NCBI RefSeq assembly: GCF_029958905.1
Contig: NZ_CP124614.1
Span: 744,001-808,000 of the forward strand
DNA: 64,000 nt
Source: Vibrio sp. YMD68
GTDB lineage: Bacteria > Pseudomonadota > Gammaproteobacteria > Enterobacterales > Vibrionaceae
Direction of reading: 5' to 3'
The translations under genes and the position numbers were made by a program. Numbering within the stretch: position 1 is the stretch's first letter; every line of letters begins with the position of its first letter. The notes beneath the pieces were generated by a model. That model did no database searches. It was given only the letters and a program-made list of their open reading frames with translations, and was not told the DNA's origin. Of this stretch, positions 653 through 61,585 are shown one piece after another.

Positions 653-698
653 CTTACCTGCATCACTCTTACCTGTATCACTCTTACCAACAATCACT
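653..698. repeat. 15-bp tandem repeat, about 3 copies
   Basis: Units CTTACCTGCATCACT and CTTACCTGTATCACT followed by a degraded third copy. The array sits at the 3' end of the minus-strand pilin gene and the last unit overlaps its stop codon. Confidence 0.75.
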
Positions 699-6755: not shown

Positions 6756-7076
6756 AAAATACTCCTTTCTAAAGGTTCTTATTTTCGTTTTTCAAACACG
6801 TCGGTTTGAACCGTTCCATTCTAATTACTCACCCGTTATAAGAGTGAATTGTTACGGCAATATGAACGTGCTTGAACAAAGTAAGACATGCGGCTCATCT
6901 AAACAAAATTCAAGTACCTAGAAATTAAAGTACCTAGAAATTAACGAGTGTATCCGTTTGCTGTGCACTAGGGCTCTCGGATCAAAGTGAGCGTAAAGTG
7001 TGCAACAGCTCGACTACTCTTGCACACTGCTCGTGGTTATGGACTAAAGATAGTGCCTTTAAGATCAACCCGTCGA
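6756..7076. other. Intergenic region, no gene seen
   Basis: About 320 bases between the small basic protein gene and mltF. It holds the upstream region of the small gene, a direct duplication of a 16-base unit (6912-6943) and an inverted repeat TGTGCAA...TTGCACA near 6998-7025. No convincing promoter or RNA gene was identified. Confidence 0.5.
6912..6943. repeat. 16-bp direct tandem duplication
   Basis: Two exact adjacent copies of AAGTACCTAGAAATTA in non-coding sequence. Confidence 0.85.
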
Positions 7077-34216: not shown

Positions 34217-35304
34217 AACACGTAATGCTCTATTGCCGTTCTGGCTTTGAAAAAGAGTGCGCTGGTGAAATTCAAGATAAAGCGAATCACCTAGAGGTGT
34301 ATGGTTTTCCTCGTGTACAGAAAAATACTGGTTATGTGCTGTTTGAGTGCTACCAAGAAGGCGATGCGGTTAAGTTGATCAAATCGATCGATTTTCAAAC
34401 GTTGATCTTTGCTCGCCAAATGTTTGCGGTTGCGACTGAGCTGACTGAGCTGCCAACAGAAGACCGCATCTCTCCTATTTTACAAGCGTTGAGTGAGGTT
34501 GAAGGCTTTCCTCGTTGCGGTGATATTCGTATTGAAACGCCAGATACCAATGAAGCAAAAGAGCTGCTGAAATTCTGCCGTAAATTTACCGTGCCGATGC
34601 GTCAAGCCATGCGCGGTAAAGGGTTATTGTTTAATAAAGATAACCCTAAAAAACCAGTTATGCATCTCTGCTTTGTCGCACCTGGCCACTGTTACGTGGG
34701 TTACTCAAACGTCGACAATAACTCAAAGTTCTTTATGGGGATTCCACGGTTAAAATTCCCTGCCGATGCACCAAGCCGTTCGACATTGAAACTTGAAGAA
34801 GCATTCCATGTTTTTATCCCTCGCGATGAGTGGGATGAACGATTAGCCTCAGGGATGTGGGGCGTGGATTTGGGTGCATGCCCAGGTGGTTGGACATATC
34901 AATTGGTGAAGCGCTCTATGTTTGTTCATGCGGTCGATAACGGCATGATGGCTGACAGTTTAATGGAAACGGGCCAAGTTAAGCACCACCAAGTTGATGG
35001 GTTTAAATTTGAGCCTGATCGTAAGAACGTAACTTGGCTTATTTGTGACATGATTGAAAAACCGTCTCGAGTTGCTCAGCTTATGGGCGAGTGGATCATT
35101 AGTGGTTGGGCAAAAGAAGCGATTTTCAACCTGAAACTGCCGATGAAAGGTCGTTATGATGAAGTGCTTCAAGATATTGAAAACCTGAAGCAATTCTTAA
35201 CTGAAAATGACGTTAAGTATAAGCTTCAAGCGAAGCATCTTTATCATGATCGTGAAGAGATAACGGTTCACCTTCAGTGTTTGTCGAATATCTCGCCGCA
35301 CTAA
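34213..35304 (+). CDS. rlmM: 23S rRNA 2'-O-ribose C2498 methyltransferase RlmM
   Basis: SAM-dependent methylation of C2498 in 23S rRNA before 50S assembly. 363 residues: N-terminal THUMP-related domain, then Rossmann methyltransferase with [14 protein letters not shown] as SAM motif and catalytic lysines, including one in the conserved [13 protein letters not shown] start overlapping the ygdD stop. The stop codon lies inside the first unit of a 17-bp tandem array. Confidence 0.96.
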
Positions 35305-35416
35305 CTATTCAACCGCACTAACTATCTCAACGTACTAACTATTTCAACGTGCTAACTATTTCAACGTACTAACTATTTCAACGTAGTAAGTATTTCAACG
35401 TAGTAAGTATTTCACA
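35298..35416. repeat. 17-bp tandem array, 7 copies
   Basis: Seven adjacent 17-base units with consensus GTACTAACTATTTCAAC and graded divergence: the first (with a one-base shift) includes the rlmM stop codon, and the last two carry TAGTAAGT. No gene or promoter is apparent inside. Confidence 0.93.
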
Positions 35417-35442
35417 ACGCTGAAAAGATTAGCGACTTTGAT

Positions 35443-35505
35443 GAAGGCCCACGGTTAGTCTCCTGGTTCGGATGATGGATTAAGGAGAACGACAGTGGGT
35501 CTTTT
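35443..35505 (+). terminator. Likely rlmM operon terminator, long stem
   Basis: GGCCCAC pairs with GTGGGTC, with an inner TCTCC/GGAGA pair, followed by TTTTTG. It is the only terminator-like element between the repeat array and xni. The rest of 35305-35617 is non-coding. Confidence 0.55.
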
Positions 35506-35617
35506 TGTACGCTTAGGAAGGTCGATGGTGCAGTGATAACAGGTCGCTGAGAATTGAATGCCAGTAGCTAATAATGACTCGTTAACAACAACCGGCTTTG
35601 CTAGAGGTCACCTCTGT

Positions 35618-36385
35618 TTATCCATTAAAACGTAGTTCTTGTAAATTGAATCCTAGTTCGATATCCGTTTTAAGCGCACAGACGATTTTGCACGTACGCG
35701 CAGAGTCTATGTGCTCATCAAATTTCTTTCGGTATTTGGGTACGAGATCATCCGCGCAGTAGGCTGTCTCAATATCGGTGTATTGGTTCAGTATTTCTTT
35801 AGCCGCTTTTGGGCCGATGCCTGGAATCCCTGGGACTTGGCTTGAGCTAATACCAGTCAGCCCCCAGTAGTCAGAAAGCTGATTCGGTTTAACACCAAAT
35901 TCTTTTTCAATAAAAGGTTCATCGAGCCAGCGGTGTTGAAAATAATCGCGAATTTGTAGCGTTGGAGAGAGTAATTGGCAGTAGCCTTTATCGGTTGAGA
36001 TAATGGTGACTTTTTCACCGTGTTGAGCCACTTTTACCGCTAATGTTGCGACTAAATCATCGGCTTCATCACCATCGGAAAGCAGAGAATCAATTCCTAG
36101 ATCCCACCAGGCTTGCTGAATTTTATCTAAGCCATGCAGTAAAGGTTCAGGCATGGGTTTTCGGTTTTCTTTATATTTAGGCAGTATTTCTGCTCGCCAA
36201 CCTCGATTTTGCAAATGGTGATCAAACACCGCAATGATATGCGTAGGTTCGGCTTCATTTATTATGCGCTTTAATGTTCGGCTAGTCGTTTCAATGGTTC
36301 TTGCTATGTCTGCGGGATCGGGCTGAGCTGAGTGGACACGTCGAATGAGGTTGAGCGCATCGATGATCACTAGGTGTATTGACAT
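35618..36385 (-). CDS. xni: Flap endonuclease Xni (exonuclease IX family)
   Basis: 255 residues, related to the 5'-3' exonuclease domain of DNA polymerase I. Metal-binding acidic residues appear in VIIDALNLIRR, GDEADDLVATLA and STDKGYCQL; helix-hairpin-helix in VPGIPGIGPKAAKEIL. The lysine-containing helical gateway region is short, as in Xni. Likely removes flaps during repair or replication; physiological role is uncertain even in E. coli. Confidence 0.94.
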   Translation of the reverse strand: MSIHLVIIDALNLIRRVHSAQPDPADIARTIETTSRTLKRIINEAEPTHIIAVFDHHLQNRGWRAEILPKYKENRKPMPEPLLHGLDKIQQAWWDLGIDSLLSDGDEADDLVATLAVKVAQHGEKVTIISTDKGYCQLLSPTLQIRDYFQHRWLDEPFIEKEFGVKPNQLSDYWGLTGISSSQVPGIPGIGPKAAKEILNQYTDIETAYCADDLVPKYRKKFDEHIDSARTCKIVCALKTDIELGFNLQELRFNG

Positions 36386-36393
36386 AACATTCC

Positions 36394-36422
36394 AAAAAAT
36401 AAGGGCTTATTCAGCCCTTATT
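36394..36422 (-). terminator. ppnN terminator
   Basis: Perfect 10-bp stem AATAAGGGCT/AGCCCTTATT, five-base loop; T run on the minus strand. Confidence 0.88.
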
Positions 36423-36524
36423 GTAATGAATCAATGATAGATTGCTACCCATTGCCTGTAGAGAATGACTCACCGTGAAGAGTGACTGTACCCTGAAATG
36501 GCATCGTGATCGCTTTCTATCGGT

Positions 36525-37895
36525 TTAACGGTCGTCAGTGGTGGCTATTTTGTAACAAGGCACGTAATCGGTGCCACCGGGTAACTTCATTCTATGTTGT
36601 TCAACAAAGTCGTTGAGCAGCTTGTCCATCTTCTCCATAAGTATTGAATCGCCGTTGATTGTGAACGGCCCATGTTTCTCTATTTCGATGATGCCTTCCG
36701 CTTTAACGTTGCCAGCAACAATGCCAGAAAAGGCTTGTCTGAGTGCGGCCGCTAAGTTTTCTGGGGGCTGTTCAAGATGAAGATCCAAGCTCGCCATGCT
36801 TTCATGGGTAGGTTCGAAGGGGAGCTGAAATTCCGGTGCAATTTTCAGTGACCAGTTAAAACTGTAAGCATCACCGGTGTCTTTTCTGTGCTGTCTTACA
36901 CTCGGCATCGCTTGGCTGATAATTTGCGCTGCCTTTTCTGGATCATCGATGACTATTTGATAATGCTTTTGTGCTTCTTTGCCAAGAGTCTCACCAATAA
37001 ATTTATCGATTGAGCGGAAGTAACTTTCACTCTCTTTTGACCCTGTCAGTACGATCGGCATCGGTTGGTCGGCATTATCTGGGTGCATCATGATGCCCAG
37101 AATATACAAAAGCTCTTCTGCGGTTCCTGGTCCACCCGGGAAGATAACAATCCCGTGGGCCATACGAACGAACGCTTCAAGACGTTTCTCAATATCCGGC
37201 ATAATGATCAACTCATTGACGATCGGATTCGGTGGCTCTGCTGCAATAATAGATGGCTCGGTTAGCCCTAAGTAACGACGATTTTCATAACGCTGCTTAG
37301 CGTGACCAATCGCGGCTCCTTTCATTGGCCCTTCCATCGCTCCTGGCCCACAACCGGTACAGATGTTCAGCTCTCTAAGGCCGAGTTCATGGCCCACTTC
37401 TCTTGTGTACTGGTACTCAGTTGGATTGATCGAATGACCACCCCAGCAAACCACAAGGTTCGGCTCAATGCCAGGTGTTAATGCGTCTGCATTGCGTAAT
37501 ATGCCAAAGACCAAATTGGTAATATGAGTACTATTCGTGAGATTCAAACGTTGGCTGTCGGCTAGGTGCATATTGACGTAAACAATATCACGCAGCACTG
37601 AGAATAAGTGTTCTTGAATGCCCTTGATCATTTGCCCATCCACATAGGCATGTTCGGGCGCATTACTTAATTCGAGCTTGATACCACGCTCGCGACGAAC
37701 GACATTCACATCAAAGGATTTGTACTTTTCTAATAGCACCTTTGAGTTATCGGTGTGGCTACCAGAGTTGAGAACTGCCAGAGTGCAGTTTCTGTAAAGT
37801 TGATAAATATCACTTGATGCTGTTTTTTTAAGGCGCTCAACTTCTAGTTGAGAAAGCAAATCCATACTACCTGCTGGGCTAATATGAGTGATCAT
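36525..37895 (-). CDS. ppnN: Pyrimidine/purine nucleotide 5'-monophosphate nucleosidase
   Basis: Hydrolyses nucleoside monophosphates to base and ribose 5-phosphate; ppGpp-responsive in E. coli (YgdH). 456 residues with central LOG-type domain: [16 protein letters not shown] and [14 protein letters not shown] (phosphoribose binding), plus N- and C-terminal family domains. Start [22 protein letters not shown] matches the family. Monocistronic with own terminator. Confidence 0.96.
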
Positions 37896-38127
37896 AGTCG
37901 CCTCCTATTGTCTGAGAAATAAACACACCGAAAAAGTTGGTGTATTTAACATCTTAGCAAAGAAATTCAGTATATAACTATTTGAAAAGACTAAATCAAT
38001 ACAGAAATGTTAATAATTTGAATTTTATGGGATGGTGACAAAGAAATATGAGGGGGGAATGTGAGGTGAAAATAGGGTTAATGAACGGCAACGTTGAGTT
38101 TGAGATCACGGACTATAAGTGACGTGA

Positions 38128-39693
38128 TTATTTCCAAATAAGTTGATTTGTTCCTAAGCTTTTCGCTTCACTGAGATTGCGACTGATGCGATCAAGCACT
38201 TCTTCTGGGGTATCCGATTCTCTAAATACAGAGCTGGTGGCGGTAAGAGTGATAGAAATATTTTTATCTTTAAATTTGAAAGGTAATTTACTGATCTGCC
38301 TTTGAATGGTTTGAATCACTTTATAGCACTCGTTGTCGTCTCGTTCGGGCAATAAAAGAATAAACTCCTCACCTGCAAATCGAGCCACAGTATCGGTATC
38401 TGACACTTCTTTAGAAATAGTTCGGGCGATGATCTTCAATGCTTTATCACCAGCGACATAGCCAAAGCTATCATTGATGGCTTTAAAGTTATCAATGTCT
38501 AACAATACAATGCGTAAATTATTCTGTGTTCTAATCCAACGGCGGTACTCTAACTCCATACGATCATTAAAGGCCGTACGGTTATATATTTTGGTCAGAG
38601 GGTCGAGCAGCATTCGTTTGGCTTGATCTTCAAGTCGGCGACGGTGATCTTGGGTTAAATCAAATACCGCTTCCAATTGCTGCTTTCCATAGCTCATGCG
38701 TTCAATGAGAGCTTCTTCTCTTTGCTCTGCGTGGTTAAGCCGTTCTGTTAACGACGTCAATTGAGCGAATAAAGGGGTCATTTCTTTCTTTAGAGCGTCC
38801 AGGTCACTGGATGAATTGACCGCCGATTTTGACTTTATGACCAGTGCATCGAGTTCTTTATTGATATTTTTTCGTTGGTCAAAGTAGCTTTGGCTTTGGT
38901 CGACGCTTTGGGCGTTACTTTTTAGAGTAGAAGAGAGTGACGAGTTGACTTGCTCAAGGAATTGCTCTGACGTTTTACGCTCAAAATTTGTACCATCAAC
39001 GACCAGCTTAAGAACTTGCAGTGTGATCTCTAGTAAGGATTGCGTCGAGACACCGAGCAGCAGTTTCGCTCTGATGTCGATGAGTATGTCACCAGATTCG
39101 CCTTCAAAATCCAATTCAGTGATTAAATGTTGTAATTCTTCTGATAAACGGGCGAGCAGTTCTTTATCTGCGGCATTATTTATTTCAGATAATGCGGTGT
39201 CTGGGTTTGAGGTGATGATTTTTATCGAGCGTTCGTAGATCGCAAGCAGTTGTAGCGCATGGGTTGAATCTTTGTTTTTTTCGGATCCAGAATAACTAAG
39301 GAGATCTCTTAAATCACGCTTTATCCTAGGCGGCAGCCCAGTAATACGCAGCAGGGTTTCTCCACTGTGTTTGACTTGTGAATCTAACTGAACCGTCTTT
39401 TTTTCCATAGCCAACGTCTGTTGTTTCAGCATTCTTTCTAATACGGCAAGACGCGGTATTAGCGAGCTGATGTCTTTATGCTGCTCAAGAGACTGTCGCA
39501 ACTCACCCAGGCTCGTGCTTAGTTTTGAATTCTCTTCACCACAAGCAAAGCTGAGGGACGCAACAATACGCTTAAGAACATTTTGTTCTCGTTTAAATTT
39601 GAACGAAGAATCTCGTTGTGTCAAACGAACCTGTTCAAGTTCGCTTTTTAGCTTGATTAGCTCTAATTCTAAATCTTGTTCGAGAACGCCCAT
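38128..39693 (-). CDS. Cytoplasmic coiled-coil protein with AGEEF-type GGDEF domain
   Basis: 521 residues, no membrane helix. Long N-terminal coiled coils (1-90, 255-350), a helical domain between, and a C-terminal GGDEF domain (~350-520) starting LLDPLTKIYNRTAFNDRMELE. The signature reads RFAGEEF (Ala for the first Gly) and the inhibitory site is SDTD, not RxxD. The metal-binding DIDNFKAINDSFGY is intact, so it may still make c-di-GMP; some AGDEF proteins are active. By position beside ppnN and queF it resembles V. cholerae VC0900/CdgG (synteny inference). Confidence 0.87.
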   Translation of the reverse strand: MGVLEQDLELELIKLKSELEQVRLTQRDSSFKFKREQNVLKRIVASLSFACGEENSKLSTSLGELRQSLEQHKDISSLIPRLAVLERMLKQQTLAMEKKTVQLDSQVKHSGETLLRITGLPPRIKRDLRDLLSYSGSEKNKDSTHALQLLAIYERSIKIITSNPDTALSEINNAADKELLARLSEELQHLITELDFEGESGDILIDIRAKLLLGVSTQSLLEITLQVLKLVVDGTNFERKTSEQFLEQVNSSLSSTLKSNAQSVDQSQSYFDQRKNINKELDALVIKSKSAVNSSSDLDALKKEMTPLFAQLTSLTERLNHAEQREEALIERMSYGKQQLEAVFDLTQDHRRRLEDQAKRMLLDPLTKIYNRTAFNDRMELEYRRWIRTQNNLRIVLLDIDNFKAINDSFGYVAGDKALKIIARTISKEVSDTDTVARFAGEEFILLLPERDDNECYKVIQTIQRQISKLPFKFKDKNISITLTATSSVFRESDTPEEVLDRISRNLSEAKSLGTNQLIWK

Positions 39694-39809
39694 ACAAACT
39701 TAACTATATGTCCATGTAAAAAGATCAAAAATGATCTTATTAACTAATTAATCGATAATAACAAAATAAATAAGGACGTCACTGAATCTAATGCTTGAAC
39801 GCCCAGGTT

Positions 39810-42074
39810 TTATCCATCTTTTAATAGTTTTTTGATGCTGTCCTCATTCTTATAAGAAGAATGTACTTTTATTAGCCCTTGGTTGATTGAATGCTTGCAT
39901 GCTTTTCTTATGTTTCCAGTTGCAAGGCTAGCGGCTGGCGCATTTTCTATGGCTTTCAAATAGACCCACTGGCTTGAGTGTTCTTTCATGCTCAATGTTC
40001 GAGCAACACTGGTCGACATCAATAAAATATCAATCAGTTCTTTGTCGCTGATGGCTGTGTATGCTCGGGGTAAAAATGGGTAGTCAGCAATTCCTATTCT
40101 GACCACTCTCATCAGCGGAAGATCGGATTTAAATTCTTGAATCCAGCTTTGTATCTTATGAAATAGCTGTTCGGGATCGCTATTATCGTCATCTTGGGGT
40201 TCGATATACAAAAGATTGGCGTCTGAGAAATGGTAAATCCGAGCAGGCTCAGAGATTTTGCTCTTTAGAAACTCTCCAAATGATTCTTCAAGCTTTAAAC
40301 CGTCTTCATAACCGTGCTGTAAGTACATATTTCTTAAGAAAGGAATATCAATCAATATGAACTTTAACCGGTCGTGCAATGGTTCATGGATGAGTTCTCC
40401 CGCTGGCCATTGCTCAAATTGATGCCGATCTTTTACTGGTGTGGGCAACTTCGCACTTAACATGCGTAAATTTGGCAAGGTGGAGCGTGAGTGTGTGCAA
40501 AGCGCATCATTGAGATTAGCGTTATCTAAATTTAGTCTTTGGATTATGTACCCTCTGCGGAGTAATACAATGAAGATCAAAACACCAATAGTGAAAAGAG
40601 CCCATGAAATACGACGCAACTGAAGGTATTTCTCGTGGGTTTCTTGCAGTTCTTCTTTTTGGCCTGTTAGGTGTAAGGTTTGTTCAACGAATTCCTTCTG
40701 CTGACGAAAGGCTTCTTCATTAATCAGATTTAAAGATTGTTGTTGAATCAGGCTGAGGTCATTAAACTTTTCTAAATTCTCTAACGCCTCCTCAAATTTT
40801 TCCTTTTTCTCAAAGCCAAGATAAAGAAGCTTATGGGCGTGCATTTGAATTGTGATGTCTTTTAACGCTATACCAAGATCAAGGGCTTCATTGGCATAAG
40901 CATAAACTAAATCTGGCTCTTGCTTGTGATGAGCAAGCCCTGCATTGAGCAGCAGCGCTTCCGCTTTTAAATGAGGGAACTGCACATATTCCAGTAACTT
41001 TTCAGCTCGATTCAAATACTGTTCAGTTAATGAAAAGTTATAAAGCTGGAGGTAAGTGGCCGCCAACGACAAGCGTATATCGATGACATCTTCAATGTTA
41101 TTTATCTTTCTCTCGTGATCGATAACGTTGAAGTAGTGCACTAAAGCCAAATTGTATTTTGACTGCTGGTAGTAAATGTCGCCCATCTGTTTTAAAACTT
41201 CTGCCAGTACAACAGAGCTTTGGTAGTTGTCATAAAAATCGGCCGCTTGAGATAGGTGTTTTAAGGCCGTATCAAATACTTTTCGTTCATAAAAAAGCTG
41301 CGCAAGTAACCGATTGACCGCTGCAAGTTGACCACTTGAATTGTCTTCAATCGCTTGCCAATAGCTAATAAGTAATTGAGATAAGGCACGATTGTAGAGC
41401 TTATTATTCAAATAGTGATGGCCGACCGCAATGTGGTAATCGATATAGGTGGCTTTGGATTTAAGTGAATCGACATACGGTTTTACTTTATTAAAATACT
41501 GGTTCGCTAAATCGACGTTACCTTCGTACGATGCAATTTCAGCTTTGAGCATAAAAATACGGTAATAAATCACGCGAGCAAACTGATCCGCTTGTTTAAT
41601 GGTGCTGTATTTAAGCTGAATCTCTTCAATTGACTGGATGGCTTGTTCAGAGTTGCGCGTTTGAAGCCAAAGAAACCGAGTGTGGAGTGTTTTAACGCTC
41701 AGGTTTTGGTAATGAAGTCGGTGCTGGTTGGTAAGCTGTTCCGCTTCTTCTAAGCGCTTATTCGCAACCGATGTATTGCCCAGGTTATATTCCGCTTGAG
41801 CGAGAATCGTGAGGGCATTAACCGTACTGATTGGGGTACGGATCGTGTTGTCACTTTCATCCCGATTCATCGCCGATGGATTGTCATTTTGATCCGTAAT
41901 GAGCTTACGTTGATTCAAATAATTGGAAGTAAGTACTTTAGACTGCGCTGGTACAATACCCAGTAAATTGTTCGCCTCATTCAGTGTTGGAGAAGAATAA
42001 ATCGTGGCGTGGGTAAGTGTAGAAAACAAGCAAAGAGTGAAACAAAATAATTGCATCCAGCGCATTGGTAGCAT
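39810..42074 (-). CDS. TPR sensor protein with degenerate GGDEF-like domain
   Basis: 754 residues. Signal peptide (cleavage about THA-TI, residue ~23), periplasmic tetratricopeptide-like helices (~85-440), coiled coil, one membrane helix (~490-508), cytoplasmic C-terminal domain. That domain keeps the GGDEF outline (FILIDIPFLRNMYLQHGYEDGL for the usual DIDxFKxxND segment), but the catalytic signature is replaced by HFSDANL. It is therefore expected not to be an active cyclase; it may bind ligand or partner. Between the AGEEF-domain gene and queF, same strand. Confidence 0.82.
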   Translation of the reverse strand: MLPMRWMQLFCFTLCLFSTLTHATIYSSPTLNEANNLLGIVPAQSKVLTSNYLNQRKLITDQNDNPSAMNRDESDNTIRTPISTVNALTILAQAEYNLGNTSVANKRLEEAEQLTNQHRLHYQNLSVKTLHTRFLWLQTRNSEQAIQSIEEIQLKYSTIKQADQFARVIYYRIFMLKAEIASYEGNVDLANQYFNKVKPYVDSLKSKATYIDYHIAVGHHYLNNKLYNRALSQLLISYWQAIEDNSSGQLAAVNRLLAQLFYERKVFDTALKHLSQAADFYDNYQSSVVLAEVLKQMGDIYYQQSKYNLALVHYFNVIDHERKINNIEDVIDIRLSLAATYLQLYNFSLTEQYLNRAEKLLEYVQFPHLKAEALLLNAGLAHHKQEPDLVYAYANEALDLGIALKDITIQMHAHKLLYLGFEKKEKFEEALENLEKFNDLSLIQQQSLNLINEEAFRQQKEFVEQTLHLTGQKEELQETHEKYLQLRRISWALFTIGVLIFIVLLRRGYIIQRLNLDNANLNDALCTHSRSTLPNLRMLSAKLPTPVKDRHQFEQWPAGELIHEPLHDRLKFILIDIPFLRNMYLQHGYEDGLKLEESFGEFLKSKISEPARIYHFSDANLLYIEPQDDDNSDPEQLFHKIQSWIQEFKSDLPLMRVVRIGIADYPFLPRAYTAISDKELIDILLMSTSVARTLSMKEHSSQWVYLKAIENAPAASLATGNIRKACKHSINQGLIKVHSSYKNEDSIKKLLKDG

Positions 42075-42086
42075 TCTGGTTATTCC

Positions 42087-42932
42087 TTATTGGCGAGCCA
42101 TGCGCTGATTATGAGCGGGCTTCGAGTTTTCTGATGAACGATACGGGTTGATGTCTAAGCCACCACGACGAGTATATCGAGCGTATACCGTTAAACGCGT
42201 CGGCTGACAATATTTCATGATGTCAGTAAATATACGTTCAACACACTGCTCGTGGAACTCGTTATGTTCACGAAAAGAGACAATATAGCGTAACAGAGCT
42301 TCGCGGTTAATTTTTTGACCTTGATATTGAATTTCTACACTGCCCCAGTCGGGTTGGTTGGTAATCAAGCAATTGGACTTCAATAAGTGGCTGTGTAGTG
42401 TTTCTTCAACGATCTCATCACTGGTTGCGCCATCAAGTAACGTGGCATCAAAGTCGTAACTTTCAATCTTAATATCTTGTGCATCAATACATTCGCCCGA
42501 CATAGTGACGATAGGTTGCTGTGTATAATCGGTGACAGGGTAGATGTTTAAAGCCACGATTTCCCCAGCACAAGCAGATAAATCGTCTTGAAGTTGTTTC
42601 GACACTTGGTCCCAACTTTCAAAAGTGGTTTGGTTGTAACTGTTTAGATAGAGCTTAAAGGACTTGGATTCAATCAGATTTGCGCTGGTGGCTGGAATCG
42701 CCACTTCCCCGATAGCCACTTGGGGCAATCCATTCTCATTTAGCCAAGATAGCTCATACATGGTCCAAATATCGCAGCCTTGGAACGGAAGGCTATCACC
42801 TAGGTGCAAATCATCTCTATTTAAACTGCGAGGTACGGGCTGCAGCAAGCTGGCATCATATTGATTGGTGTATTGCGTTTTTTGGCCAAGGGTAAGACCC
42901 GCGAGCTCTTTTGCATTGGAATATTTGCTCAT
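42087..42932 (-). CDS. queF: NADPH-dependent 7-cyano-7-deazaguanine reductase
   Basis: Reduces preQ0 to preQ1 in queuosine synthesis. 281 residues, long two-domain QueF form: catalytic Cys in [19 protein letters not shown] and substrate motif [20 protein letters not shown], with [14 protein letters not shown] in the C-terminal half. Twelve bases before the TPR gene on the same strand; divergent from syd. Confidence 0.96.
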
Positions 42933-43043
42933 ACTTTGTCTTAAATTAGATTAGAATGGCGAGAATTTTACGCAATCCCCAGTGAACTGTCATTAATCAT
43001 ATGACCTAAAGCTGGCTTTCCGACCCATATTTTGGAGACCTCA

Positions 43044-43589
43044 ATGACTTCTGATGCTTCTCAGGCTCTTTTTTCTTTTAGCCAAAGGTATTTAGACGCA
43101 TATCAATTAGCTCATCACTCACTTCCTCATAACGAAGAACTTGCTCAGCTGGTATCTCCTTGTGTTGAAAAGAAGTGGCAAGACAGTGTGTTATGGAAAG
43201 CTCATCCACGTGAGAAGAGCGCTGACTTTACCAATGTGGAAAATGGCATTGAGTTGACCATTCATGATGATATTAAAGCCTTCTATGGCAGCCAGTACAG
43301 TGCTGACATGAACGCAAAGTGGAAAGGTAACGAACTGGCATTATTGCAGGTTTGGAATGATGAAGACTTTGTACTGTTGCAAGAAAATATCCTAGGGCAT
43401 TTGGTCACGCAAAGGCGTTTAAAGCTGAAACCCACGGTGTTTATTGCTGCGACTGACGCAGAGCTTGATGTGATTTCGATATGCAATTTGTCAGGAAACG
43501 TTATTTTGGAAAGGTTGGGCACCGATAAGCGCGATGTCCTAGCGCAAAGTATTGTTGAGTTTCTTACTCACTTAGAGCCAGCGGTATAG
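43044..43589 (+). CDS. syd: SecY-interacting protein Syd
   Basis: Peripheral inner-membrane protein that associates with SecY and may monitor translocon quality. Start at ATG 43044 with GGAG upstream gives 181 residues, as in E. coli; the TTG at 43032 is rejected. Contains [24 protein letters not shown], the conserved surface segment, and [10 protein letters not shown]. Followed by a DUF2310 gene 19 bases downstream. Confidence 0.94.
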
Positions 43590-43608
43590 TCGGGTTTGGG
43601 AATAAATA

Positions 43609-44388
43609 ATGTATGTAGTTGAATTGCAATTTGAGTGCTTTGATAACACGACGGTGAGCGCCGTTGATAAAGCGATCAATGGCCTGATGGATGCGCTGAG
43701 ATACAACGGACAAGTCCTGGGTCGTGAGTTCCCTATCGTAATGGGAGAGGGCGAGTTTCTGGTTCGTGTTGTGTGTCCTGAACAAGACAGTTTGCACCCT
43801 AAGTATCATTCTGATTTTGTTAAAGTGTGCTTTAACCGCTTAACGGAAGCATGCCTACTAGCGCCCAAAATGCGTTTGCTTGGAAGAGATCTTAACTCGG
43901 AAGAAGCCGCTGAAGAAGAGACGCCGAGTTGGCAAATCCTTTACACCACCTTCGTTCATACCTGCTCACCATTAAGAAGCGGTGAAAGCTTGTTGCCTAT
44001 TCCGTTGTATCGAAATCCTGCGACGTTCAATGGCGATCATAAAGCTTTGATTAAGTGGCAAACAGAATGGCAAGCGTGTGATGAAATTCAAATGGCAGGA
44101 GCTTGCCGAGCCGAGCACGCGACGCAGTTTGAAATCTGCAGTGCTGATAGTGTGCTGTTTCGCCGTGGTTGGGATTTAAGAGGACGCATTGAGTTTTTAA
44201 CTAAAGTGCCGACTTACTACTATCAATATCGAGTTGGCGGAGAGAGCTTAGCGAAAGAGAAAGAACGCAAGTGTCCTAAGTGTGGTGGGGATTGGTTACA
44301 GGATGAAGCATTGCACGATATCTTCCACTTTAAGTGCGATGACTGCCGTATAGTGTCCAATATTTCCTGGGATCAAATTAAAGTCTAG
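43609..44388 (+). CDS. Zinc-ribbon protein, DUF2310 family
   Basis: 259 residues. C-terminal zinc ribbon with CPKCGG and, 20 residues on, CDDC, the usual four-Cys knuckle; the larger N-terminal region (MYVVELQFECFDNTT) is specific to DUF2310, a family described as possibly nucleic-acid binding. Function unknown. Apparently cotranscribed with syd. Confidence 0.85.
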   Translation: MYVVELQFECFDNTTVSAVDKAINGLMDALRYNGQVLGREFPIVMGEGEFLVRVVCPEQDSLHPKYHSDFVKVCFNRLTEACLLAPKMRLLGRDLNSEEAAEEETPSWQILYTTFVHTCSPLRSGESLLPIPLYRNPATFNGDHKALIKWQTEWQACDEIQMAGACRAEHATQFEICSADSVLFRRGWDLRGRIEFLTKVPTYYYQYRVGGESLAKEKERKCPKCGGDWLQDEALHDIFHFKCDDCRIVSNISWDQIKV

Positions 44389-44457
44389 CCGCTAATGACT
44401 TCACCGCTGGACATTCAATCCTGAACACTTGATGCAGAACACGGGATAAAGGTGTTT

Positions 44458-44504
44458 ATAGGTAAGCAATGTTTACAGATAAGCAATGTTTAGATAAGCA
44501 ATAT
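44458..44504. repeat. 17-bp tandem repeat, about 2.8 copies
   Basis: Two 17-base units ATAGGTAAGCAATGTTT and ACAGATAAGCAATGTTT, then AGATAAGCAATAT with a two-base deletion. Confidence 0.8.
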
Positions 44505-44524
44505 ACTCAGACAAGAATAAAAAA

Positions 44525-44594
44525 AGCCGATATCTACTTTATTTTATTGAAAGCGAGCTCATGGAGCATGATTTCATTGAGTAGGATATCGGCA
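44525..44594 (-). terminator. metNIQ terminator with long stem-loop
   Basis: GCCGATATC-type arms (44526-44534 and 44586-44594), with partial pairing inside, followed by a T run in the minus-strand direction; ~65 bases past metQ. Confidence 0.7.
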
Positions 44595-44660
44595 TTTTAA
44601 ATGGTTTAGCGTTGACGTTCGGTTATTTTAATAACGTCGCGACAGTGAGCTTTGGGCTGA

Positions 44661-45470
44661 TTACCAGCCTTTTACTACGCCACCTTGGAAAATTTCAGAC
44701 GCTGCGCTGTATACTTCTTCCGTTTGGTATGCTTTTACAAAGTTCTGAACGTTTTCGGCATTCAGGTTATCTTCGCGAGCAACAACAAGGTTTACGTATG
44801 GAGATTCTTTGTCTTCAACAAAAATACCGTCTTTTTGTGGTGTTAGGTTGATAGAGCTCGCGTACGTTGTGTTGATTATAGAAAGCGCTACATCATCCAG
44901 TGAACGAGGAAGTTGCGCTGCATCGAGTTCAACAATAGTGATGTTTTTAGGGTTCGTTACGATATCGCGAACGGTAGCCAGTAGACCAGCGCCTTCACGT
45001 AAAGTAATAAGACCTTGTTGTTCAAGAAGAAGCAGTGAACGACCTAGGTTTGTTGGATCGTTTGGAACCGCAATACGCGCACCATCTTCGATTTGTTCAA
45101 CAGAGTCCACTTCTTTTGAATAACCTGCAATTGGGTAAACAAAGGTGTTACCAGCAATCACAATTTTGTAGCCGCGGTCAGCAACTTGCTGATCTAGGTA
45201 TGGTTTGTGTTGGAACGCGTTAACGTCGATAGAACCATCGTCAAGTGCCGCGTTGGGTGTCACGTAATCGGTGAACGTCACTAGCTCAACATCAAGGCCG
45301 TATTGCTCTTTTGCGATTTTTGCCGCTACTTCTGCTACTTGAGCTTCTGCACCAGCCATTACACCCACTTTGATTTTGCTGCTGTCTTCTGCTTTATCAC
45401 CACAACCTGAAAGAACAAGCGCAGACGCTATCGCTGCAATGGAAAGTAGACCTTTAACGTTAAATTTCAT
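44661..45470 (-). CDS. metQ: Methionine ABC transporter substrate-binding lipoprotein
   Basis: Periplasmic D/L-methionine receptor tethered to the inner membrane. Signal peptide with lipobox VLSGCGDKAED, then the NlpA-family fold: KIKVGVMAGAEAQVAEVAAKIAKEQYGLDVELVTFTDYVTPNAALDDGSIDVNAFQHKPYLD. 269 residues. Last gene of metN-metI-metQ; separated from metI by a 135-base gap filled by a 17-bp tandem repeat. Confidence 0.96.
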   Translation of the reverse strand: MKFNVKGLLSIAAIASALVLSGCGDKAEDSSKIKVGVMAGAEAQVAEVAAKIAKEQYGLDVELVTFTDYVTPNAALDDGSIDVNAFQHKPYLDQQVADRGYKIVIAGNTFVYPIAGYSKEVDSVEQIEDGARIAVPNDPTNLGRSLLLLEQQGLITLREGAGLLATVRDIVTNPKNITIVELDAAQLPRSLDDVALSIINTTYASSINLTPQKDGIFVEDKESPYVNLVVAREDNLNAENVQNFVKAYQTEEVYSAASEIFQGGVVKGW

Positions 45471-45497
45471 GATTATTTCCTTATCAAAAAATGAATA

Positions 45498-45565
45498 GCT
45501 TCTAATTAACTATTGCTTCTAATTAATTACTGTTTCTAATTAACTACTGCTTCTAATTAACTAAT
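45498..45565. repeat. 17-bp tandem array, 4 copies, in metI-metQ gap
   Basis: Four adjacent units with consensus GCTTCTAATTAACTAYT, positions 45498, 45515, 45532, 45549. It expands the otherwise short gap inside the met operon. Confidence 0.93.
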
Positions 45566-45605
45566 TGTGTAATCCGCTTCTCAAAACAAAAAGCGTGTTG
45601 AGTTT

Positions 45606-46298
45606 TTATCTGTGATCGACTCGGCGAACAATGGTGTCGCCAATAGATTGAATGATTTGTACTAGCACGATGAGCATCACGACGGTCACCGCCATAATCA
45701 CCACATCGTAGCGGTGGAAACCATATCGAATAGCAACATCACCCAAGCCACCGCCACCTACCGTCCCTGCCATAGCGGAGTAGCTCACGAGTGTGACGAG
45801 CGTAATCGTGACAGAGTTAATGATGGTCGGTAATGCTTCTGGTAATAACACTTTGGTAATAATTTGAGTCGGTGTCGCGCCCATTGATTGAGCTGCTTCG
45901 ACAAGCCCCGTTGGTACTTCTAGAAGTGCACCTTCAATAAGACGAGCAACAAAAGGAATCGCACCAATCGTCAGTGGCACAATCGCAGCCGTAGTACCAA
46001 TAAAGGTGCCAACTAGCAGCTTTGTCACCGGGATGATGGCAACCATAAGAACCAAAAATGGCACAGAACGCCCCATATTAACGATGGCACCGAGTACGGC
46101 ATTAAATTGGGTGTTTTCTAATAAGCCGCCTTTTTTGGTGGTATGTAAAATAACGCCAAGCGGAATACCGATAGCAAAACCGACAATCCCAGCCACACCG
46201 ACCATGTAAAGAGTTTCCCATGTCGCACCCAGCAACAGGTTTCCGTTTAGGCTTAGCCAGTCACCGACGGTACTTAAAGAAAGGGTATTAAAGGACAT
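45606..46298 (-). CDS. metI: Methionine ABC transporter permease
   Basis: Inner-membrane channel subunit of the MetNIQ importer. About 230 residues, five to six helices. The ABC-permease EAA loop reads [26 protein letters not shown]. Begins inside the end of metN; ATG 46298 ([17 protein letters not shown]) with GAGG nine bases before is preferred to TTG 46304. Confidence 0.95.
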
Positions 46299-47322
46299 AA
46301 CCAAGTACCTCTACTTTTACTTTGTTCTCACTTAAAAACGCAATAGCCGCATTATCATCTTCTTCGCTTCCAAACAGTTCTGCGACCATCATGCCGAACT
46401 TAACACCGCCTGCGTAATCGAGATCGGAACTTAAAATGCTCACATCAATATTGAATTGTCTCGTTATCTGCGACATCAGCGGGGCATCAACGGTCTCGCC
46501 GGTGAACTCTAAACGGACCAGTGGATAGCTTCCTTCTACGCGCGTTTTTTGTAGGCGAACTTGATAATCTTCAGGGATGCTCAGGTCGAGTGTTGAACGA
46601 ATAAACTCGTGCGCCAACTCTGTTTTAGGGTGAGCAAAAATTTCGCCAACCGTCCCTTTTTCAACCAATTCACCGTCGCCAATAATCGCAACTTGGTGAC
46701 AGATGCTTTTCACCACGTCCATTTCATGGGTGATGAGTAAGATCGTGATATTCAGCTTGCGGTTGATTTCACGCAGTAGCTCTAAAATCGATTGTGTTGT
46801 CGCAGGGTCTAGTGCACTTGTTGCTTCATCGCAGAGAAGTACTTTCGGGTCAGACGCCAGTGCTCTAGCGATAGCAACACGCTGCTTTTGTCCGCCACTT
46901 AAGTTAGCCGGGTAGGTGTCTCGCTTGTCTGCCAAGCCAACCAGTTTCAGCAATTCTGAAATCTTACTCTCAATATGCTGTTTGCTTTGCCCTGCAAGTT
47001 CGAGCGGTAAAGCGATGTTGTCAAATACCGTACGTGATGACAGTAAGTTGAAGTGTTGGAAAATCATGCCGATGTTACGGCGAGCTTCACACAGTTGTGA
47101 TTTGCTTAATAAAGTAAGGTCAACACCATCAACAATGATTGAGCCGGTAGTGGGTGCTTCCAGCATATTGACGCAGCGGATTAGGGTACTTTTCCCCGCA
47201 CCTGAAGAACCAATAACACCAAAGATGGTGCCTTGCTCAATATGAAGGTCGATATTTTTCAGGGCAACGATCTCTTTGGTGCCTTGATAAAAAACCTTAT
47301 TTACTTGATTTATCTCAATCAT
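46288..47322 (-). CDS. metN: Methionine ABC transporter ATP-binding protein
   Basis: ATPase of the MetNIQ importer. Walker [12 protein letters not shown] loop FQHFNLL, signature [15 protein letters not shown], Walker [13 protein letters not shown], switch THEMDVV. C-terminal NIL regulatory domain (~265-344), which senses methionine and inhibits transport. First gene of the operon, downstream of Met boxes. Confidence 0.97.
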
Positions 47323-47420
47323 TTTCTTTCCTGTGCAGGGATAACAGAATAATATTTTGAACTGTATCTCATTTAGTAGAGGATGCTATGGTTTTCCCTG
47401 AATCAAGTCAATAGATATTT

Positions 47421-47444
47421 TTACGTCTAGACGTCTAAACGTTC
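47421..47444 (-). promoter_or_regulatory. MetJ operator (three tandem Met boxes)
   Basis: Three adjacent 8-mers: TTACGTCT, AGACGTCT (perfect consensus) and AAACGTTC. Located ~100 bases before metN in the metN/gmhB divergent region; predicts repression by MetJ with S-adenosylmethionine. Confidence 0.88.
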
Positions 47445-47536
47445 GTTTGCACTAGTACCAAAAGTAATTAGATAGTGATGAAAGAAATAAAGCGTGCGAT
47501 AATTCCACAATATATTGACTAAATTGAGTATGAGTT

Positions 47537-48088
47537 TTGGCTAAACCCGCAGTGTTTTTGGATCGAGATGGCGTGATCAACGTGGATCATGGTTACGTAA
47601 ATGACGAGCACGATTTTGAGTTTATTGACGGTGTTTTTGACGCGACGAAGCAGCTTCAGAAAATGGGGTATATGCTTGTACTCGTAACGAATCAATCCGG
47701 TATTGCGCGTGGCATGTTTGATGAGGAGCGTTTTCTTTCCCTAACTCAGTGGATGGATTGGAACTTTGTCGATCATGGCGTCGAATTTGATGGTTTCTAT
47801 TACTGCCCCCATCATGCTGAGCATGGCATTGCTGAATACAAACAAGATTGTGAGTGTCGCAAGCCTAAACCCGGTATGTTTATTTCTGCACGTAACGATC
47901 TGGATATTGATATGGCAAACTCAATCATGGTTGGCGATAAAGCCGAAGACATGATGGCTGCTGAGGCGGCGGGCATAGAAACGAAGATTCTGGTGCGTAC
48001 GGGTAAACCCGTCACCGAACAAGGCGAAACGTTAGCCACGACCGTACTTAACAGCATTAAAGATGTACCGGCTTACTTAGCTAGTTAG
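47537..48088 (+). CDS. gmhB: D-glycero-beta-D-manno-heptose 1,7-bisphosphate 7-phosphatase
   Basis: Dephosphorylates heptose 1,7-bisphosphate for LPS inner-core ADP-heptose synthesis. HAD-family: [17 protein letters not shown] (nucleophile Asp), [10 protein letters not shown], the zinc site CPHH...[10 protein letters not shown], and MVGDKAEDM. The start must be TTG 47537: a stop codon lies two codons upstream in frame, and no ATG gives the family N terminus [12 protein letters not shown]. The TTG start suggests modest expression. 183 residues. Confidence 0.96.
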
Positions 48089-48102
48089 TACTTACTTAAA
48101 TA

Positions 48103-48146
48103 GCTATTTATCTATTTATCTATTTATCTATTTAGCTGTTTATCTA
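48103..48146. repeat. 8-bp tandem repeat downstream of gmhB
   Basis: About five copies of CTATTTAT with variants, in the gap between gmhB and the MliC-like gene. Confidence 0.8.
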
Positions 48147-48255
48147 TATTAGGAATTTGGCTATTTAGGCATTGGGCCATTTAGTTATGTCGTATTAGCT
48201 GTGCCATACTTTGCTGATTACCTGATGAGTATTATTATTGAATTTAGGGGGGACC

Positions 48256-48600
48256 ATGTACAAACAGTGTATTTCGGTATTTTTTATTGGATTGGGCTTA
48301 ATTGGCTGCACTCAAACGCAGCTAAATGACAGTCAAATCGATGGGCATCCTTACGTTCAATATCGTTGTGAATCAGGTGATAGCTTTGAAGTTGCCTATA
48401 TACCAGACAGTGATTTCGCAGTACTGCGAGAGGACGATGTTCAATACGATTTGGTGAGATCTCGCTCTGGCTCGGGGGTTATGTATATCCTCAAAGAGGT
48501 GATGGCTGAGGCTGAAAATCCCATTACACTTCGCACAAAAGGTAAAGAAGCGCTTTTAGAGCTTGACCACCATGTTTACAAAAACTGTAAAACACAATAG
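48256..48600 (+). CDS. MliC-like lipoprotein (lysozyme-inhibitor family)
   Basis: 114 residues. Signal peptide with lipobox LIGCTQTQ, then a single small domain beginning VQYRCESGDSFEVAYIPDSD and containing VRSRSGSGVMYI, the pattern of MliC/PliC inhibitors of C-type lysozyme. Cys in YRC and in the terminal KNC could form the usual disulfide. Start ATG 48256 behind AGGGGGG. Function is family-based; the exact inhibitory loop is not verified. Confidence 0.75.
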   Translation: MYKQCISVFFIGLGLIGCTQTQLNDSQIDGHPYVQYRCESGDSFEVAYIPDSDFAVLREDDVQYDLVRSRSGSGVMYILKEVMAEAENPITLRTKGKEALLELDHHVYKNCKTQ

Positions 48601-48632
48601 GTTAGTGTAAAACATAATAGGTTAGTATAAAA
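48586..48632. repeat. 20-bp tandem repeat across lipoprotein stop
   Basis: TGTAAAACACAATAGGTTAG, then the same with one change, then a partial copy. The stop codon lies inside the first unit. Confidence 0.85.
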
Positions 48633-48781
48633 CCAATGAGTACAGTACAAGTTAATCCAGAACCGTCTGTTTAAACAAGCGTCACCGAGTCCCGCTTTTT
48701 GAACAGGCCGTTTACCCAGTGACATGCCAGATCCGATAGCCATGTCGACTTTTTTCCTTCCAATAATGCTTTCCAATAACT

Positions 48782-49729
48782 ATGAGAAAAAAACTCACAA
48801 TTCACGATATCGCTAAACTATCCGGGGTTGGTAAGTCTACGGTTTCACGTGTATTGACCAATGATCCTAAAGTGAAACCTGCCACTCGGGCCAAAGTTGA
48901 GCAAGTGATCCAAGAGTCGGGTTATGTGCCGTCAAAGTCCGCGCAATCAATGCGTGGAGGCAGTCAAAAAGTGGTGGGGGTTATTATTTCCCGTCTGGAC
49001 TCCCCATCAGAAAATAAAGCCGTTGGGAGCATGCTCAAGAGCTTGTATGACGAAGGATATGATGTGGTGATCATGGAAAGTCAGTTCGATCGGCAGAAAA
49101 CCAATGAACATCTCGAGGTACTACAAAAACGGAATGTCGATGGTGTGATTGTGTTTGGGTTTAGCGATTTAGATCTTGGAAATCTAGAGGCATGGCAAGG
49201 GAAATCCGTTGTTATTGCCATGGATACTACGGTGACTTCATCGATTAATTATGACAATAAAGGCGTGATTACTTGCGCGTTACGATACTTGTCAGAGCGT
49301 AAAATCCGTAATATTGCGTTTATTGGCGTCGATCCTAGTGATAAAACCACAGGAAAGTTACGTTTAGAATCCTACATTGAATGGTGCCAAATCCACGACA
49401 TTGTCCCATCGTATCAAACTGGGCAACTGCATCATGAAAGCGCCTATCAGCTGGTTGATAAAGTGCTGACAAATCAAACCGAAGCGATAGTTTGTGCTAG
49501 TGATACCCTTGCTCTCGGTGTGATAAAGAGGCTGCAAGAATTAAGTCGTGATGACGTTATGGTGACAGGTGTTGGTGGTAATGAACTGCTTTCTTTCCTT
49601 TTCCCTAAAATTCATAGTATTGATCCTGGTTACACATTAGCGGGCTACCAAGCAGCTAAGCTTTTGATATCCCATATAAATGGCAATGCTGAGAAGTGCC
49701 ATGTCACTCAGGAACCGATCATTTCTTAA
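48782..49729 (+). CDS. treR: Trehalose operon repressor TreR
   Basis: LacI-family repressor of trehalose uptake; binds trehalose 6-phosphate. N-terminal helix-turn-helix LTIHDIAKLSGVGKSTVSRVL with hinge, then periplasmic-binding-protein-like core (VVGVIISRLDSPSENKAVGSML; NEHLEVLQKRNVDGVIVFGF), matching E. coli TreR. 315 residues. No clear ribosome-binding site before ATG. Upstream of treB in the same direction, with two likely operators between them. Confidence 0.95.
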   Translation: MRKKLTIHDIAKLSGVGKSTVSRVLTNDPKVKPATRAKVEQVIQESGYVPSKSAQSMRGGSQKVVGVIISRLDSPSENKAVGSMLKSLYDEGYDVVIMESQFDRQKTNEHLEVLQKRNVDGVIVFGFSDLDLGNLEAWQGKSVVIAMDTTVTSSINYDNKGVITCALRYLSERKIRNIAFIGVDPSDKTTGKLRLESYIEWCQIHDIVPSYQTGQLHHESAYQLVDKVLTNQTEAIVCASDTLALGVIKRLQELSRDDVMVTGVGGNELLSFLFPKIHSIDPGYTLAGYQAAKLLISHINGNAEKCHVTQEPIIS

Positions 49730-49779
49730 CTATTAATGTCCCATTGAATTAAAATTATACTGTGATCTCATTCAATTTA

Positions 49780-49851
49780 TGGGACTGTTCCCATTTTATT
49801 TTCAAGGGATGCCTGTCACTATCCTATCAAACGCGTTTGGGACTGTTCCCA
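49780..49851 (+). promoter_or_regulatory. Two TreR-type operators upstream of treB
   Basis: TGGGACTGTTCCCA occurs twice exactly, at 49780-49793 and 49838-49851, 58 bases apart. Each is an inverted repeat TGGGA-N4-TCCCA. Between treR and treB; assignment to TreR is inferred from location and duplication. Confidence 0.78.
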
Positions 49852-49910
49852 TTTTTGCGTGGGAAAACAAAATAGACTCAGAATGAGACTCCAACAGGGT
49901 GGATAAGGAT

Positions 49911-51335
49911 ATGAGTAAGATAGCAAAACAAGACGTAGAACGTCTGATTGAACGGGTCGGTGGTAGTGACAACATTGCGAGTGTGAGTCATTGCTTAACT
50001 CGACTTCGTTTTGTGCTAAAGGATACCAATAAGGCTGATGAAAAAGCGTTAGAGGCGTTGAGCCTAGTGAAAGGTTGCTTCACCAACGCGGGTCAATTTC
50101 AAGTGGTTATTGGGACTGAAGTTGATGAGGTGTATGCCATCCTTATTGAACTGTCTGGGCAATCTGAAGCATCAAAAGATGAATCTAAGCTGGCTGCGAG
50201 ACAGAATATGAATGCGCTAGAGCGTGGCATATCTCATCTCGCGGAAATATTTGTTCCATTGCTTCCTGCGATCATTACCGGTGGTTTGATTCTGGGTTTC
50301 CGTAATGTCATTGGCGACATCAAGATGTTTGATGGCCAGTCGTTAACTGAAATCAGTCAGTTCTGGGCCACGGTGCATTCATTTCTTTGGTTGATTGGAG
50401 AGGCTATTTTCTTCTTCTTACCAGTTGGCGTGTGCTGGGCAACAGTGAAAAAACTCGGTGGCACCCCCATTCTTGGTATAACCCTTGGTGTCACCCTAGT
50501 TTCACCACAGTTAATGAATGCGTATTTGATCGGTAAGGAAGTACCACAGGTTTGGGACTTCGGTTTGTTTGTCATCGAAAAAGTGGGCTATCAAGCACAG
50601 GTTATTCCAGCCATTCTCGCTGGGGTTGTCTTAGCGTTTATTGAGACTAATTTGAAGCGTATCGTCCCCGCCTATTTATATTTAGTGGTCGTGCCGTTTG
50701 TTTCTATTATCGTTTCTGTCGTTCTAGCCCATGCACTGATTGGTCCTTTCGGACGCGTGATTGGCGATGGCGTTGCGGCGGCGGCCAAATTTGCAATGAC
50801 AGGCGATTTTGCTGTGATCGGTTCAGTCGTGTTTGGTTTTCTTTATGCGCCATTGGTTATCACGGGTATCCACCACACCACGAATGCGGTTGATCTGCAG
50901 CTGATGCAAGAGCTTGGTGGAACGCCAATTTGGCCATTGATTGCACTGTCTAATATTGCTCAAGCTTCGGCAGTGGTTGGTATCATTATTATTAGCAAAA
51001 AGCATGGTGAGAGGGATATTTCTGTCCCTGCGGCTATCTCTGCTTACCTTGGTGTCACAGAGCCAGCGATGTATGGCGTTAACCTAAAATACAAATTCCC
51101 AATGCTGAGTGCCATGGTGGGCAGTGCGATTGCTGCGGCTATTTGTGGCGGCGCAGGCGTGATGGCCAATGGTATCGGTGTTGGCGGTTTACCTGGCATC
51201 TTATCTATTCAGCCGCAGTTCTGGGGTATTTATTTTGTGGCTATGCTGGTGGCGATCTTTGTTCCTGCGGTATTGACTTTGTTCTTCTATAAACGCGCAC
51301 AACAAAAAGGGGAGTTGGAGTTAGCGAGTGCTTAG
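49911..51335 (+). CDS. treB: PTS trehalose-specific EIIBC component
   Basis: Imports trehalose with phosphorylation to trehalose 6-phosphate. N-terminal EIIB domain with phospho-Cys in SVSHCLTRLRFVL, linker, then EIIC membrane domain (GGLILGFRNVIGD; GEAIFFFLPVGVCWA; GITLGVTLVSPQLMNAYL). ~474 residues. The EIIA function must come from elsewhere (Crr-type). ATG 49911 (MSKIAKQDVERLIE) equals the E. coli start; GTG 49899 is possible. Confidence 0.96.
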   Translation: MSKIAKQDVERLIERVGGSDNIASVSHCLTRLRFVLKDTNKADEKALEALSLVKGCFTNAGQFQVVIGTEVDEVYAILIELSGQSEASKDESKLAARQNMNALERGISHLAEIFVPLLPAIITGGLILGFRNVIGDIKMFDGQSLTEISQFWATVHSFLWLIGEAIFFFLPVGVCWATVKKLGGTPILGITLGVTLVSPQLMNAYLIGKEVPQVWDFGLFVIEKVGYQAQVIPAILAGVVLAFIETNLKRIVPAYLYLVVVPFVSIIVSVVLAHALIGPFGRVIGDGVAAAAKFAMTGDFAVIGSVVFGFLYAPLVITGIHHTTNAVDLQLMQELGGTPIWPLIALSNIAQASAVVGIIIISKKHGERDISVPAAISAYLGVTEPAMYGVNLKYKFPMLSAMVGSAIAAAICGGAGVMANGIGVGGLPGILSIQPQFWGIYFVAMLVAIFVPAVLTLFFYKRAQQKGELELASA

Positions 51336-51363
51336 TTCTTGTTACCAGTCCTTAGTTGGACAT

Positions 51364-51440
51364 AGTACATAGATAGAAAGAGTACATAAGCAGAAAGAGT
51401 ACATAAGCAGAAAGAGTACATAAGTAGAAAGAGTACCTAG
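51364..51440. repeat. 17-bp tandem array, 4.5 copies, in treB-treC gap
   Basis: Units of AGTACATAAGCAGAAAG (first and fourth with one or two changes) at 51364, 51381, 51398, 51415 and a partial fifth. Part of a 234-base gap that separates treB from treC. Confidence 0.93.
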
Positions 51441-53426: not shown

Positions 53427-53447
53427 TTCGATTCTTATTACAGAATA

Positions 53448-61403: not shown

Positions 61404-61585
61404 TTTTATTCCTTAGCTATCTTAACGATAGGTGAGTGCATTCCGTTAGTTTCTTTAGCCTATCGATTTTACCGCTCAGTTTCAATTGCGAAGCGGATTA
61501 TTCACCATCTATTATTAACCATGGATGGTTTACCATAGATAAGAAAGCAAAGTCGATGATGTCACCGACTTTATCAATATTGGCG

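Follow-up and report, generated by a model that had tools for sequence, protein, structure and literature searches.

The subject of this study is a 64-kb stretch of the genome of Vibrio sp. YMD68 (positions 744001-808000 of contig C2, NZ_CP124614.1; the genome consists of three contigs and 4.85 Mb), hereafter the window, in which gaps between genes, for instance those next to rlmM, metQ, gmhB and treB, hold arrays of short units repeated head-to-tail. As objects these arrays belong to a known kind, the variable-number tandem repeats (VNTRs) or bacterial minisatellites. We located them with Tandem Repeats Finder (TRF) and with a lag-match detector, which scores how well the sequence matches itself, without gaps, at every lag between 5 and 60. 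As listed in Table 1, TRF reports a period of 17 bp for four non-coding arrays, and two further arrays within genes have a period of 15 bp, in agreement with the original prediction, which had been made from the letters of the sequence alone and had placed these six arrays at nearly the same coordinates. That prediction also treated exactly 17 bp as the length common to several intergenic arrays; this length is not special, and other non-coding arrays in the window have periods of 14, 15, 16, 8/16 and 20 bp. As shown below, the periods cluster between 14 and 19 bp. We consider it likely that a single, recurrent duplication process favouring such lengths has produced the arrays, and that these are mostly neutral intergenic VNTRs.

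The period spectrum of intergenic arrays

We determined the periods of arrays in a sample of 1.17 of the 4.85 Mb, which comprised the window and 56 other stretches (1.11 Mb outside the window) and in which genes were called with a home-made codon-bias caller. The 129 non-coding arrays detected fall into two humps, one at 7-8 bp (7 bp, 11 arrays; 8 bp, 4 arrays), which also appears in the samples of other Vibrio, and a larger one at 14-19 bp (10, 13, 15, 16, 10, and 7 arrays at 14, 15, 16, 17, 18, and 19 bp, respectively), with 10 arrays in total at 9-13 bp and 17 at 20-25 bp. Outside the window, 64 of the 119 non-coding arrays have periods of 14-19 bp (14 bp, 9; 15 bp, 12; 16 bp, 14; 17 bp, 12; 18 bp, 10; 19 bp, 7), so that 15, 16, and 17 bp are about equally common. 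The histogram of periods proposed as a check on the 17-bp claim therefore does contain a peak, but one that is six lengths wide and highest at 16-17 bp. Within the window, periods of 17 bp make up four of the eight arrays with periods of 14-20 bp (P about 0.04 given their share outside, for arrays picked by eye after the sequence had been looked at).

The arrays are far more numerous than resampled sequence would contain: in the first 842 kb of the sample we detected 99 non-coding arrays, whereas a single Markov-resampled version of its non-coding sequence contained 1, and resampled versions of other sample sets contained 1 to 3. A detection artefact, in which TRF at a score of 50 is blind to two-copy units shorter than 13 bp, was considered and rejected, as the lag-match detector and a filter of at least 2.7 copies both keep the trough at 9-13 bp and the peak at 14-18 bp. 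With that filter, 42 arrays have periods of 14-18 bp and 8 have periods of 9-13 bp (P 6e-7), and because this excess persists, the peak is not merely a detection threshold. Array density per non-coding kb is 0.407 on contig C2 and 0.353 on contig C1, and the third replicon has no array in 9.1 kb.

Table 1. Tandem arrays in the window. Flanking genes are named from NCBIfam/Pfam matches; the names mltF and dxs come from the original prediction only.
Feature	Position	Strand	TRF position (copies)	Setting
15-bp array, 2.5 copies	652..688	.		convergent gap
16-bp array, 2.4 copies	6906..6944	.		convergent gap; outside sister contig
In-frame 15-bp array	7151..7207	-	7151-7207 (3.8)	putative mltF coding region
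In-frame 15-bp array, 2.9 copies	25345..25387	-		putative dxs coding region
17-bp array	35296..35414	.	35300-35414 (6.8)	convergent gap rlmM / xni
17-bp array	44453..44502	.	44453-44502 (3.1)	convergent gap, DUF2310 gene / metQ
17-bp array	45495..45563	.	45498-45563 (3.9)	metI (3' side) / metQ (5' side)
8/16-bp array	48101..48181	.		directly after gmhB stop codon
20-bp array	48586..48637	.		spans stop codon (48600) of MliC-like gene
17-bp array	51347..51439	.	51364-51436 (4.3)	treB / treC gap
Weak 14-bp array (lag-match detector)	61497..61540	.		

Turnover of the arrays between sister genomes

To follow the arrays between genomes we used the closest named relative, Vibrio genomosp. F10 str. 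ZF-129 (hereafter the sister), whose RlmM is 99% identical and whose draft assembly contains pieces 92-95% identical to the window between 15.2 and 53.5 kb. The alignment covers 297 kb, of which 37.7 kb are non-coding. Six non-coding window arrays were compared. At 45498 the sister is shorter by 34 bp and at 48586 by 20 bp, both cleanly and corresponding to two units and one unit, respectively, and thus copy number differs between the sister genomes by whole units, as in VNTRs. At 51364 TRF finds a period of 17 bp in the sister with 2.9 copies, fewer than here, and at 48101 the sister version is shorter, with gaps including one of 24 bp. The array at 44453, with a period of 17 bp here, has a period of 15 bp in the sister (L137 9278-9323), and of the 35298 array the sister keeps only a decayed trace with weak similarity at lag 17. 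The coding repeats at 25345 and 29529 have no gaps relative to the sister. We conclude that duplicated tracts vary by whole units between the sisters and also decay by substitution. Separately, four tRNA-Tyr genes of the window are repeated in tandem with a period of 191 bp (53444-54163; 98% matches by TRF), and the sister draft contig C80 ends within this array (the alignment stops at window position 53488).

Insertions relative to the sister were kept when they were tandem, of at least 85% identity and without an internal gap. The nine retained, whose direction is unpolarised (no outgroup), measure 7, 12, 15, 15, 15, and 20 bp in non-coding and 8, 12, and 15 bp in coding sequence, the 8-bp case being out of frame and at the end of a called gene. 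The homology at their junctions is 0, 0, 0, 1, 1, 1, 3, 5, and 15 bp, where the value of 15 represents a third unit added to two. Six of them, of 12-20 bp, appear to be duplications from one copy to two, and their homology (0, 0, 1, 1, 1, and 3 bp) lies near that at random positions (mean 0.74, 54% zero, 6.6% three or more). With the identity cut lowered to 75%, the non-coding gaps of at least 4 bp (120 bp at most) comprise 17 of tandem type and 76 that are non-tandem, many of the latter sitting in diverged, badly aligned arrays. Further, 89 pairs of RlmM-locus contigs (at least 86% identity; 1,272 kb pairwise, non-independent) yield 7 distinct tandem insertions of 7, 7, 8, 15, 22, 24, and 28 bp, which are too few to provide a length spectrum.

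Unit sequences and other repeat classes

The original prediction that the units are unrelated, and hence that the arrays are not copies of one element, is borne out by two results. A search of the whole genome with the 35298 unit (at most two mismatches) gave six matches, five in its own array and one elsewhere, against 2 and 5 for the reversed-pattern control, and the units of 64 arrays share no dominant k-mer, the most enriched 5-mer occurring in 8. Plasmid or origin iterons require a conserved binding motif in each array and were rejected on the same k-mer count; dispersed repetitive extragenic palindromic (REP) sequences or bacterial interspersed mosaic elements (BIMEs), which occur as many near-identical copies, were rejected for the 35298 unit, the one searched, as its single outside match lies within the control; and a clustered regularly interspaced short palindromic repeat (CRISPR) array was rejected because it requires unique spacers, yet the copies here abut directly. 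At the Rfam gathering threshold no match in the window overlaps an array; the six matches found are four tRNAs, GcvB (32007-32211, minus strand) and CsrB (21438-21809, plus strand).

We note three other observations on repeats in the sampled sequence. A 'GACCTGACCCCTTT'-like string is common to the duplications at L009 11323-11354, L009 12541-12580, and L010 19033-19074; these contrast with the unrelated units of the other arrays and possibly represent a dispersed element. On the third replicon, L024 2049-5508 contains 13.3 copies of a 261-bp unit (99% matches), is called coding and resembles a large repeat protein. At L024 652-725, also called coding, CTAT is repeated 18.5 times, which makes it a candidate phase-variable tract.

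Location of the arrays and reading frame

The arrays are unevenly distributed with respect to genes: 30 of the 67 placed arrays lie in convergent gaps (10.2 expected) and 5 in divergent gaps (16.6 expected), and in co-directional gaps 25 of 32 lie on the 3' side. We compared arrays, substitutions, and indels across four classes of sequence, namely convergent gaps, the downstream and the upstream half of co-directional gaps, and divergent gaps. In this order, arrays of 13-21 bp occur at 1.27, 0.55, 0.20, and 0.19 per kb; substitutions relative to the sister at 0.114, 0.067, 0.045, and 0.044; non-tandem indels at 5.8, 0.95, 0.42, and 0.18 per kb; and indels that are tandem or periodic at 3.4, 1.6, 0.95, and 0.09 per kb. 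Because substitutions and indels share the gradient of the arrays, tolerance suffices for their location and a function at gene 3' ends is not needed. Two points count against this part of our interpretation: decayed arrays that align badly may raise the apparent indel rates in convergent gaps, and co-directional arrays in the sister have no 3' preference (6 of 13). Overall, the location of the arrays can be explained by tolerance, and a position at gene ends need not imply function when ordinary substitutions and indels are distributed alike.

Within genes, 85 of 92 arrays have periods divisible by three (67 of 74 if arrays of the same period within 2 kb count once), as is typical of VNTRs, compared with 43 of 129 non-coding arrays, the fraction expected by chance. 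The earlier proposal that only multiples of three survive in genes is upheld in the sense of mostly rather than wholly.

Abundance of the arrays in other genomes

We compared genomes by the number of arrays with periods of 14-19 bp per non-coding kb in sampled sequence. The density is 0.376 (71 arrays) in this genome and 0.244 (27) in the sister; G069 (0.310, 8 arrays), G011 (0.095, 4), and G059 (0.212, 4) were sampled deeper after a first look, the former two because arrays appeared there. Seven other Vibrio reach 0.079 (3 arrays), and E. coli K-12 has none in 31.3 kb, where 4.8 are predicted from the pooled rate of ten other Vibrio. At the RlmM locus, a single genomic place per record, the density of arrays of 14-20 bp is 0.058 (6 arrays) in 40 other Vibrio records and 0.021 (1) in 17 Colwelliaceae contigs. 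The duplication process seems to run at a higher level, or to have its products better retained, in the V. genomosp. F10 lineage than in the majority of the Vibrio sampled. A simple mutator was rejected as an explanation, since polA, mutS, mutL, recJ, and xseA are present and open in this genome, with profile matches over the cut-off and without stops (sbcCD, uvrD, ligA, rnhA, and topA lie outside this check).

In the first 330 bp past rlmM, only L034, L037, and L073 of 50 relatives have an array score of at least 14, and the trace in the sister scores 9. The strong 16-bp array of Vibrio maerlii (L034) lies about 132-252 bp past the rlmM stop codon, whereas in the window this stop codon is inside the first unit of the 35298 array; because the distance differs, the two arrays are probably independent.

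Discussion

The process that we favour has three steps. In the first, suggested by the six unpolarised cases, a stretch of about 12-20 bp would be copied head-to-tail, and its ends would often have little homology. In the second, shown above, duplicated tracts come to differ by whole units between the sister genomes and decay by substitution. In the third, likewise shown, survivors are found chiefly in places that tolerate indels, namely convergent gaps and the 3' side of genes, and within genes mostly at lengths divisible by three. The length may be set by a single-stranded flap that is displaced, or by a pair of nicks staggered by about 15 nt and then filled in and ligated; slippage would add later copies. 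The original prediction proposed one expansion mechanism with a preferred slip length; we retain the single process and the preferred length, which is the 14-19-bp band and not 17 bp, but 'slip' may fit growth better than birth because the six births have little junction homology. A bolder claim is that a homology-free duplication activity, which would measure out about 15-17 nt by itself (probably through an enzyme footprint or a flap length), is shared by gammaproteobacteria as unlike each other as Vibrio and Yersinia, is raised in the V. genomosp. F10 lineage, and is where their intergenic VNTRs chiefly come from. We put this claim forward tentatively and regard it as rather unlikely as it stands.

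Several results weigh against a recurrent process of this kind. The clean births are few (six), and one of them has 3 bp of homology. The excess in array density is modest, as this genome exceeds the ten other Vibrio pooled by 2.5-fold but the comparison with the sister gives a P value of 0.07 (rough tests), and no cause for it was found among polA, mutS, mutL, recJ, and xseA. Further, exact duplications extend by at least 3 bp in 21 of 38 runs here and in 5 of 12 in the sister, against 6.6% at random, although this set cannot separate birth from growth because partial third copies and 6/7-mer tracts are included in it. The exact duplications do not support homology-free duplication.

They fit slippage during replication in its classical form, between short direct repeats that happen to lie about 15-17 bp apart, in which the length would represent the size of loop that escapes repair. 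The whole-unit differences between the sisters and a near-repeat flanking the 48586 unit are also as slippage would have them, and yet the homology of the six apparent births is close to the null mean. Loops of 9-13 nt should likewise escape mismatch repair, which makes the trough at these lengths difficult for slippage, and we judge it possible but somewhat improbable as the source of the arrays. That the arrays are functional 3'-end elements, involved in termination, mRNA 3' protection or spacing by about 1.6 helical turns and hence with a selected period, would account for the convergent excess, the divergent deficit and the stop codons straddled by some arrays. It is nonetheless very unlikely: substitutions and non-tandem indels are graded in the same way across the gap classes, the units are unrelated and, in the window, without an Rfam match, few relatives have an array past rlmM, and the 44453 period differs between the sisters. 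The last point also speaks against selection for about 1.6 helical turns, the alternative offered in the original prediction, as do the width of the band, which spans about 1.3-1.8 turns, and the avoidance by the arrays of divergent and 5' regions, the places in which phasing for regulation would matter. Finally, chance as the reason why four arrays in the window have one length is hardly credible as the whole explanation: the 14-19-bp band recurs in the genome beyond the window, in the sister and, at lower density, in other Vibrio, which already contradicts chance for the band and leaves it standing only for the mild over-representation of exactly 17 bp.

The interest of a recurrent duplication process lies in the length band and the possible homology-free birth rather than in the arrays themselves. 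The origin of bacterial VNTRs is usually put down to slippage, and a reproducible length band at duplication, if homology-free, would indicate a specific biochemical source, which mutation accumulation could test. A named duplication length of 16-17 bp in bacteria was not found among the matches listed (titles and abstract openings), which is weak evidence of absence. In mutants of Okazaki fragment processing, unprocessed 5' flaps give rise to tandem duplications that are short (tens of bp) and have short direct repeats on their flanks; the duplications here are similarly short, but there they are driven by the mutation, whereas here polA is intact.

The nearest likeness is to the VNTRs used for typing Yersinia pestis by multiple-locus VNTR analysis (MLVA). 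The published list comprises 88 VNTRs (PMC3689786), of which 48 are intergenic and 24 lie in open reading frames, the latter all with units divisible by three. Our hand tally of the intergenic units (1-6 bp, 6; 7-8 bp, 15; 9-13 bp, 5; 14-19 bp, 19; 20-22 bp, 3) gives the same two humps at 7-8 and 14-19 bp, but the loci were chosen for typing, so that this spectrum is not an unbiased sample and lends our interpretation less weight than it otherwise would (PMC3689786). Ten loci overlap a gene 3' end, seven of them with units of 16-19 bp, and copy number is variable, there within one species and here between sister genomes, whereas the bacterial family and the unit sequences differ (PMC3689786). 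The tandem repeats of archaeal Borgs (PMC9879509) resemble the Vibrio arrays in their local origin, fast evolution, unique units, and genome-specific abundance, and in having units divisible by three in open reading frames and mostly not between genes. They differ in that they are described as near-perfect and enriched in A, frequently with partial repeats alongside, whereas the Vibrio copies are often decayed and the six apparent births have little flanking homology (PMC9879509).

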